In this document: positions 42,779 through 64,000 of the stretch, piece by piece
How positions within the stretch are numbered: the stretch's first letter is position 1
Layout of the letters: every line of letters begins with the position of its first letter
Source of the DNA: Promethearchaeota archaeon
Lineage (GTDB): Archaea; Asgardarchaeota; Lokiarchaeia; Sigyniarchaeales; SOKP01
Reading direction: 5' to 3'
NCBI GenBank assembly: GCA_019058245.1
Contig: JAHPZJ010000028.1
Location: 62,001 to 126,000 of the forward strand
DNA length: 64,000 bases
Translations under genes and position numbers: made by a program
The notes under the pieces: generated by a model
Seen by the model: the letters and a program-made list of their open reading frames with translations, nothing else
Told to the model about the DNA's origin: nothing
The model's database searches: none

Positions 42779-44914
42779 TTAGGTTCTACAAAGTCTTTTT
42801 AAAAGAGTTGGATCTATTATCTCTTTTGGTTTCCATCCCTTCTCTTTTAGATATGCCATTATCTCATCTTTCATATTAATAGGAATATCCGCTTCCAGAC
42901 GGACAAATTTCTCTAAATCATTAGGAAATTCAACACCCTTATATTTTCTCTCTAAATCGATCCAATGAGATAATTTTATCATTCGTCCTTTAGAATTATC
43001 TGCAGGTCTTAAAGCTAATTTGGCGACTAAACAGATAGCTTGTTCTATACTTTCCGCGGTTGTTAATAGATGTTCAGGTCCAGGTCCCACTAGATGATCG
43101 GCTGTTCCATCTCGAGCATTGAATACTTTCCAAACATCTTCATCATCGGAGCGTCCAATATACATTCTTCTATATTCCGCGGCATGAGGGCCACAAACAG
43201 CTGGTACACCTAAACCATTTGCCATACTTGCAATACTTGCAGCTTTTTGAGACATAGCACCCCATGCAACACCAACTGCTCCAACTCTGTTTAAAACATA
43301 GTCAGCTATTTCTTCAAAATTACCACGTAATGGTCTTCGGGCGAAGATATTAGCAACTTTAATTGCAGCTCCAGTAATATGAGGATTACTTACGCAACTT
43401 CCTACATTTACTAAACCGCCTCTATCAAAATCACCCGGAAATCTATCATATAATGTTTTTCCATCTTCATCCTTTACAAGGCCAATATCCATTGCTCCAC
43501 AGCCTGAAACTACAACTATATAATTTCTTGTTAGAAATTCTTCAGCCATTTTATATAGTTCTTGAATTTCATGAGCATAACTCGCACATCCAATTATTGC
43601 AACAATTCCAGGGATTTCTCCTAAGACAATAGGGGCACCTACATTCCTAATTTCGGTGTCCATAATAGGTCCACGCCCTACTCTACAGTTGAATTTCTCA
43701 TTTCTAATCTGTTCTCTAGCGGCATATTGTAATAAAGTTAAAGGAGATACACCTTTCATACAGTCTCCTTCACATCGTCCACATCCCAAACACTCATCGA
43801 ATGCTCCTGCTAATACTGAGAAATCCCCATCTTTAGCTAATTTTACTCCTTCCACAAGTGGTAAATCATTTGGACAATTTCTTTGACAATTTCCACAGCC
43901 ATTACAATTCATCGCCATATCAATGCAACCTTGTTCATCAGGAACTCCACTTTTTGCTTTTCTAATTGGTTTGACTTTTATTGCAGTTTCAGCTGCTACT
44001 GCACCAGCTTTTATTGGATCTAAAATAAGGACACCGGGTTCCTTTCCACTTACTAAATCATCAACAATTTCATTGATAGGATCAGTGGTTCTATCAGGTA
44101 AACCGCTCATATTCTTTTCATTTGTAGCAATAAATGGAGCTCCAATCAACTGGGCTTGCTCAAATGATCTTAGATTTACACATTGTTCATCAACCATTAC
44201 TACATCTGGAAATCCCGATCGAATCACATGAAGCTGTCTTGACATTGATCCCACAATCTTAGCACCATCATAGTATCTCGTTAAATCATGGGCAGTACAA
44301 CAAATTGCTCCAACATCTACCTTTTCATCTATACCTTTTTCTCTTATATAATCAACTAATTCGACTCCAGGGGCAACGTTATGTCCAATCATCAAAATAA
44401 CTGCCTTACTCGTATCTAATGTTCCCATACCAAGTTCTACAATAGGAACATTAGGATCTCCCATAGGAAATCCGTACGCGGCAATTTGAACAGCATCAGA
44501 AATTTCCATACCTACAGAATCTGCTAATCCTGCTAAAAAGCTTTTTGATTCATAATCTAAATAAGAACTCTCTTGTCCTGTATGTCCCGCCGCTAATAAG
44601 TGTGTTATTGTAAAATGCACCCACTCCATAGCGGTTTCTAAATCTTCTAGGGTTTCAGGTTTCATACCGACAACTAATCTTGTGTGAGGCATCTCAACGG
44701 CTATATTATTCCCAAAATTAATTGGTACATTGCCATACTTTTCTTTTAACCAATGTAATAGATGATCTCCGTGGGCAGAATGGCACGCAGCGCCTATACA
44801 GCAGGCAATCTCTACTATCCGACTCTGTTGTGTCTCCATATTGATCCCGCATGCACCTGTTCGCCCCTTGGAAAGATTACATTTCCCATATGTGCATAAA
44901 CAGCACATATCACA
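42779..44914 (-). CDS. cdhA: Archaeal CODH/acetyl-CoA synthase alpha subunit (CdhA), main body
   Basis: CDMCCLCTYGKCNLSKGRTGACGIN, CNGCGNCQRNCP, CLGCGRCEGDC, GHNVAPGVELVDYI, VVSGCGAMDIGL; ~710 codons without stops. Confidence 0.92.
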   Translation of the reverse strand, partial: CDMCCLCTYGKCNLSKGRTGACGINMETQQSRIVEIACCIGAACHSAHGDHLLHWLKEKYGNVPINFGNNIAVEMPHTRLVVGMKPETLEDLETAMEWVHFTITHLLAAGHTGQESSYLDYESKSFLAGLADSVGMEISDAVQIAAYGFPMGDPNVPIVELGMGTLDTSKAVILMIGHNVAPGVELVDYIREKGIDEKVDVGAICCTAHDLTRYYDGAKIVGSMSRQLHVIRSGFPDVVMVDEQCVNLRSFEQAQLIGAPFIATNEKNMSGLPDRTTDPINEIVDDLVSGKEPGVLILDPIKAGAVAAETAIKVKPIRKAKSGVPDEQGCIDMAMNCNGCGNCQRNCPNDLPLVEGVKLAKDGDFSVLAGAFDECLGCGRCEGDCMKGVSPLTLLQYAAREQIRNEKFNCRVGRGPIMDTEIRNVGAPIVLGEIPGIVAIIGCASYAHEIQELYKMAEEFLTRNYIVVVSGCGAMDIGLVKDEDGKTLYDRFPGDFDRGGLVNVGSCVSNPHITGAAIKVANIFARRPLRGNFEEIADYVLNRVGAVGVAWGAMSQKAASIASMANGLGVPAVCGPHAAEYRRMYIGRSDDEDVWKVFNARDGTADHLVGPGPEHLLTTAESIEQAICLVAKLALRPADNSKGRMIKLSHWIDLERKYKGVEFPNDLEKFVRLEADIPINMKDEIMAYLKEKGWKPKEIIDPTLLKRLCRT

Positions 44915-44948
44915 TTTGTCGTATATGCACAGATCAATTGTGCATATA
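44915..44948 (-). other. 34-nt insertion in cdhA: 27-nt hairpin plus 7-nt tail
   Basis: Between FYMPI and CDMCC. Transcript sense TATATGCACA-ATTGATC-TGTGCATATA-CGACAAA; perfect 10-bp stem; shifts frame. Confidence 0.7.
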
Positions 44949-45026
44949 TATCGGCATGTAAAAAGGTTTGTATCTTTCCATCATTTTGAAAAACCAATTG
45001 CGTAGGGTTGGAATATGGGGCATAGG
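44949..45026 (-). CDS. cdhA: Internal cdhA segment in a different frame (PMPHIPTLRNWFFKMMERYKPFYMPI)
   Basis: Matches the conserved CdhA N-terminal stretch (MGPxPMP...LRNWD.K.MERYKPFYMP); frame offset from both flanks. Confidence 0.75.
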
Positions 45027-45027
45027 A

Positions 45028-45059
45028 TTTTACCCTTGAGAAGTCATGCTTCAATCAAG
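45028..45059 (-). other. ~32-nt insertion in cdhA: 25-nt hairpin plus 7-nt tail (boundaries ±2 nt)
   Basis: Transcript sense CTTGATTGAAG-CATGA-CTTCTCAAG-GGTAAAA; contains TGA and TAA in the two relevant frames. Confidence 0.65.
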
Positions 45060-45190
45060 TGAGGTCCCATAGGCTCCCATTCCGTCTCATCTCCGAAAGA
45101 AACTTTACCAGTAGTAAGTTCGAATCCTTTAATCGTTCCGAGAGGACCTTTATATTCATCTATTTTAACTTTAGCTCCTCTTTTTTCCAT
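45060..45190 (-). CDS. cdhA: CdhA N-terminal segment
   Basis: MEKRGAKVKIDEYKGPLGTIKGFELTTGKVSFGDETEWEPMGP, then LIEA* if read straight through; same frame as 42779-44914. Confidence 0.75.
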
Positions 45191-63949: not shown

Positions 63950-64000
63950 ATGAACCAAGTAAACAATGAACAAATCTCTCTTGATAATATTGATTTACCA
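63950..64000 (+). CDS. Start of a truncated CDS at window end
   Basis: MNQVNNEQISLDNIDLP... open to the window edge. Confidence 0.35.
   Translation, partial: MNQVNNEQISLDNIDLP

Follow-up and report, generated by a model that had tools for sequence, protein, structure and literature searches.

The window analysed here is a 64,000-nt stretch of DNA from a Lokiarchaeial metagenome-assembled genome (MAG), designated G000. It carries cdhA, encoding the alpha subunit of CO dehydrogenase/acetyl-CoA synthase, and the start of a gene for the catalytic subunit of the splicing endonuclease (Table 1). The plain ORF of cdhA is open only from an ATG at 44908 and encodes 709 aa, and homology extends about 70 residues upstream of this ATG by way of a frame change and a return.

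Two inserts in the cdhA gene of the window

Compared with 27 intact Lokiarchaeial relatives, the gene has an insert of 32 nt at GP-H-P and another of 34 nt at MP-I-CDMCC. Both had been reported, at these lengths, by the first-pass annotation, whose borders (45028-45059 and 44915-44948) are offset from those in Table 1 by a single nucleotide, owing to a repeated A, and give an identical product. When both inserts are removed, the conserved N-terminus is regained (GPHPMPHIP..., YMPICDMCCLCTYGKC) and the gene reads MEKRGAKVKIDEYKGPLG...EPMGPHPMPHIPTLRNWFFKMMERYKPFYMPICDMCCLCTYGKCNLSKG. The spliced N-terminus (MEKRGAKVKIDEYKGPLG...) matches positions 5-110 of the TIGR00314 profile.

Table 1. Features of the cdhA locus and of the window's right end (window coordinates).
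Feature	Position	Strand	Basis or remark
cdhA, CO dehydrogenase/acetyl-CoA synthase alpha subunit	42779..45190	-	TIGR00314 cdhA, 981 bits for the downstream ORF
cdhA exon 1	45061..45190	-	alignment with the N-terminus of intact relatives
cdhA intron 1 (predicted), 32 nt, ACTTGATTGAAGCATGACTTCTCAAGGGTAAA	45029..45060	-	excision gives GPHPMPHIP
Inner helix of intron 1, CTTGATTGAAG / CTTCTCAAG, loop CATGA	45035..45059	-	5 bp + UU bulge + 4 bp
cdhA exon 2	44950..45028	-	protein-level conservation; frame other than that of exons 1 and 3
cdhA intron 2 (predicted), 34 nt, ATATATGCACAATTGATCTGTGCATATACGACAA	44916..44949	-	excision gives YMPICDMCC
Inner helix of intron 2, TATATGCACA / TGTGCATATA, loop ATTGATC	44922..44948	-	10/10 pairs
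cdhA exon 3	42779..44915	-	starts A-TGT GAT ATG: remainder of the Ile codon, then Cys motif CDMCCLC
Start of EndA gene (catalytic subunit, splicing endonuclease)	63950..64000, continues beyond window	+	TIGR00324 endA, 117 bits; PF01974 match at G000:C28:126271

The perfect 10-bp stem that had been described for insert 2 was confirmed, with a z-score of -4.3 against dinucleotide shuffles. The hairpin of insert 1, with its 2-nt bulge, reached z = -1.7 and alone is within chance. Moreover, an 8-bp hairpin (ATATGTGC/GCACATAT) lies in exon 3 at 44885-44908, exactly where the third intron site described below falls, and one of its arms has TATGCACA in common with an arm of intron 2. This hairpin could be what remains of a site-3 intron that was lost, or the source of intron 2.

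Recurrence of the inserts in Lokiarchaeia

The cdhA N-terminus was screened in 86 genomes of the class, 232 of the phylum (Asgard) and 80 loci of a GTDB-based collection. Among the 232 Asgard genomes, eight inserts were found at three sites in five genomes, all of them Lokiarchaeia of one family. The window genome carries sites 1 and 2 (32 and 34 nt). The other four all have hairpin inserts of 29-34 nt at site 2: G011 (34 nt), G022, which belongs to another genus (30 nt), and G010 and G018, where site 2 (32 and 29 nt, respectively) is accompanied by a third site at CCL-CTYG (31 nt in both). Since these lengths cover all classes modulo 3, the frame is not the conserved property. Excision by the bulge-helix-bulge (BHB) rule explained below restores the family consensus of CdhA in 8/8 inserts.

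The introns have a common structure and little common sequence. The insert of G011 is a near copy of insert 2 of G000 (58/60 nt with flanks), and the site-2 stem sequences are unrelated among G000/G011, G010, G018 and G022. At site 3 the stems of G018 and G010 are related, and a double change from G-C to A-U keeps the pair (CTTGTAAA/TTTACAAG versus CTTATAAA/TTTATAAG). The shared architecture of hairpin plus tail, first noticed in the two window inserts, thus recurs in eight inserts and five genomes, and it is this recurrence, not the single hairpins, that puts the pattern beyond chance.

Each insert of G000 occurs once in its genome, and no further copy was found there or in the 86 genomes of the class, except that of insert 2 in G011, at the same site. 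A MITE-like mobile repeat, for which several copies per genome would be expected, was discarded on this ground. An apparent insertion in G013 turned out to be an assembly gap of N.

Pairing between inserts and exons, and competing explanations

Intron borders were set by the archaeal rule, in which each bulge is cut between its nucleotides 2 and 3. In all eight inserts the two exons pair in an outer helix, a central helix links the exon end to the last nucleotides of the intron, the 5' bulge has 3 nt and the intron forms an inner hairpin. The predicted cuts after bulge nucleotide 2 coincide with the borders that the protein requires, although these were picked with the BHB rule in mind, inside the 1-nt freedom allowed by the protein; the 3' cut of intron 1 is set by the frame. 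The central helix has 4/4 pairs in five inserts and 3/4 in three. At one fixed geometry, 29/32 central pairs are formed versus 12.4 expected (0/20,000 draws, with random exon 4-mers from cdhA), and 22/24 in the non-redundant set, where each independent stem is represented by a single insert (P = 2e-5).

The two introns of the window, like that of G011, are relaxed BHBs with 3/4 central pairs. Intron 1 presents a 5' bulge UC^A (the caret marks the cut), a central helix ACC/GGU, a long 3' bulge (>3 nt) and an outer helix AUGGG/CCUAU. Intron 2 has a 5' bulge AU^A, a central helix GCCG/CGAC (3 pairs and a C.A mismatch), a 3' bulge AA^A and an outer helix UUACA/UGUGA. The tail xGxxAAA, proposed in the first-pass annotation as a motif in its own right, actually consists of the strand that the intron contributes to the central helix, followed by the 3' bulge.

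The site-3 introns of G018 and G010 show the canonical form, with a 4-bp central helix rich in A-U and G-U pairs and two 3-nt bulges; that of G018 (GUGC/GCAC, UGUU/GAUA, bulges UAA and AUU) is canonical with a weak central helix. Site 2 in G022, G018 and G010 combines a 4-bp central helix with a 4-nt 3' bulge. For example, G022 has an outer helix AUAUUACA/UGUGAUAU, a central helix UGCC/GGUA and bulges AAA and AAUU, and the central helix variants at this site are GGUA, GGUG and GGCA against UGCC. Unconstrained folding of the site-2 regions of G022 and G010 gives the BHB unaided. In the minimum-energy folds of the window introns with their flanks the central helix is absent for both, and the z-scores are modest (-0.5 and -1.9).

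A structure-only BHB scan combined with an ORF-fusion test was abandoned: it gave 100 matches in 710 kb, apparently noise, and failed to pick up the known introns owing to their short exons. Group I and group II self-splicing introns were also dismissed, as their core needs hundreds of nucleotides and the inserts have 29-34 nt.

The two window inserts are very probably short archaeal pre-mRNA introns of the BHB type, of the kind found in cbf5. In the cdhA transcript each insert would fold as a BHB, in which the exons would pair mutually as the outer helix, the upstream exon end and the 3'-terminal nucleotides of the intron would make up the central helix, and the intron would close as a hairpin. 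A hetero-oligomeric tRNA-splicing endonuclease would then cleave each bulge between its second and third nucleotides, and RtcB would ligate the exons, so that the reading frame would be regained, and with it the Cys-rich Fe-S motif.

The first-pass annotation had suggested an insertion family tolerated either through RNA-level removal, which fits BHB introns, or through hopping. In such a translational bypass the ribosome would skip the hairpin, a process known from T4 gene 60 and the yeast mitochondrial byps, whose elements the inserts resemble in size, in hairpin shape and in being short hairpins within an ORF; the proposed tail would also serve as a landing-type sequence. However, we found no pair of take-off and landing codons that consistently matches while keeping the conserved residues. 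At insert 2 the codon preceding the resumed TGT is AAA, versus ATA or CCG upstream, and at insert 1 a CCT/CCT pair is present but two conserved residues would be lost. Furthermore, the 3' end of each of the eight inserts is paired to the upstream exon as it would be in a splicing substrate, the lengths follow no single class modulo 3, and genes with two inserts would require two efficient hops. Bypass is therefore improbable.

Even slimmer is the chance that cdhA is a pseudogene here, or that the real protein begins at the downstream ATG and is short by about 70 residues. The open 709-aa ORF would suit this, but the upstream exons are conserved as coding sequence. Of the changes between G000 and G013 in the first 64 codons, 33 are synonymous and 3 nonsynonymous (20 and 1 in the exon 1 codons compared, 12 and 2 in exon 2), and this synonymous excess indicates that the exons are read as protein. 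They are under strong purifying selection, in the reading frame expected after splicing. Moreover, a start at the downstream ATG would strip the protein of the conserved GPHP region and of the initial Cys of the motif, which nearly all archaeal relatives possess, and the BHB structure of the inserts would not be accounted for.

Programmed excision of the inserts from DNA, as with the IESs of ciliates, would restore the gene equally well. It is very doubtful, given that terminal repeats are absent, no linked recombinase was seen and none of the assembled copies of these genomes has the excised form; the exon-intron complementarity also makes sense for RNA, not for DNA. Finally, sequencing or assembly error is strongly disfavoured, as the annotation had already argued of two independent errors: the window comes from one MAG, but hairpin inserts occur in five different MAGs, insert 2 is nearly the same in G000 and G011, the stem changes at site 3 are compensatory and the inserts have no other copy in the 86 genomes of the class.

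Splicing genes, distribution and known archaeal introns

BHB splicing of cdhA would need an endonuclease and a ligase. G000 has two EndA-type genes, with TIGR00324 matches of 197 and 200 aa. The first protein bears the motif GPGIEHS and its best match is chain B of the tRNA-splicing endonuclease structure 3p1z from Aeropyrum pernix, whose cbf5 gene carries an intron. The second, encoded elsewhere in the genome, is without the His-Ser of the catalytic motif. Both subunits and RtcB are encoded in G000, G010, G018 and G022, so the hosts are predicted to have a hetero-oligomeric splicing endonuclease and a ligase. By analogy with described enzymes (PMC2738675, PMC7714728), the two subunits may assemble into an (alpha-beta)2 enzyme with relaxed specificity. 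The catalytic gene lies about 19 kb from cdhA, and the two also share a contig in G022 (C100) and G013 (C101). In the sampled contigs of G000, two tRNA genes have introns of 22 and 29 nt; the latter, in tRNA-Thr(UGU) (G000:C30:177461-177564, L220), is placed by ARAGORN at the non-canonical position 32.

Concerning the history of the inserts, a tree of the cdhA part downstream of the introns requires five state changes for the five intron-bearing genes. Around site 2 (-30 to +30), G010 and G018 are 59/60 identical, versus a mean of 47/60 along the gene, and the sister genes of G010 differ from it in this region. G022 and its sister gene in G035 are about 96-97% identical outside and 77% identical in -30 to +200, and the cdhA of G011 diverges from its sisters in the windows adjoining the insert. 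Short exon tracts by site 2 in G010 (L020), G022 (L021) and G011 (L050) conflict with the gene tree. These patterns are suggestive of recombination or conversion having carried introns between species along with short pieces of exon; the alternative is repeated loss.

Further examples, which the first-pass annotation proposed to look for, came from the sister genomes (four more Lokiarchaeia) and not from other genes of G000, where none of the 412 ORFs with a sampled relative was interrupted (1.06 Mb, about one third of the genome). The method of this survey recovered cdhA in G010, G018 and G022. Two HdrA-like genes with an in-frame TGA (G000:C13:36300-36750, L193, and G000:C28 near 244500, L043) were rejected as interruptions; the TGA aligns with Cys and probably encodes selenocysteine. 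Interruption of cbf5 was found in none of the Lokiarchaeial genomes with cbf5 fully recovered. The family search found a cbf5 gene split by a 32-nt insert in the MAG G047 (G047:C151:7238-8226, L279). Excision of this insert gives GTLDPKVTG, and its BHB looks canonical on visual inspection (GGGA/UCCC, CACU/AGUG, bulges AGA and CAA). As the contig may be contamination (bin contamination 9%), this insert was taken as a positive control, not as an Asgard case.

The cbf5 introns of Desulfurococcales and Sulfolobales have 16-44 bp and mostly relaxed or unconventional BHBs cut between bulge nucleotides 2 and 3; they interrupt a catalytic codon, their presence is patchy and the host endonuclease is hetero-oligomeric (PMC2738675). 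The cdhA introns are alike in lying within a protein-coding gene, in size, in the BHB or relaxed BHB at their borders, in the bond predicted to be cut (that between nucleotides 2 and 3 of the bulge), in their place in or beside catalytic codons, in their patchy presence and, judging from the genes, in the host enzyme. They differ in gene, in phylum (Asgard, Lokiarchaeia) and in the low G+C content of the genome, and there are up to two per gene at three positions, each intron-bearing copy being nested among intronless sisters; splicing of cdhA is a prediction from sequence. Archaeal tRNA BHB introns are of similar size and presumably use the same enzymes, whereas those of cdhA are in mRNA, where no tRNA body guides the enzyme. 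In Haloferax volcanii, the splicing endonuclease cuts an mRNA BHB in the 5' UTR of HVO_1309 (PMC7714728), in contrast to the coding introns of cdhA.

Until now cbf5 has been the sole archaeal protein gene with a confirmed coding-region intron (PMC2738675, PMC7714728), and in the papers searched we found no Asgard or cdhA introns. Hence cdhA would be the second archaeal protein gene known to us with such introns and the first in Asgard archaea. It would also be the first case we know of two BHB introns in one gene, the kind of intron being already known. A wider and more tentative possibility is that Asgard mRNAs gain BHB mini-introns repeatedly and that these move between species with flanking exon, in co-conversion-like tracts; this would mean multi-intronic archaeal protein genes and ongoing gain without an intron-encoded protein.

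Gene callers shorten such genes, and here the first ~70 residues of CdhA would go missing. As the gene belongs to central carbon metabolism in the archaeal lineage nearest to eukaryotes, and close intronless sisters are available, the gain and loss of introns in archaeal mRNAs would be directly testable.
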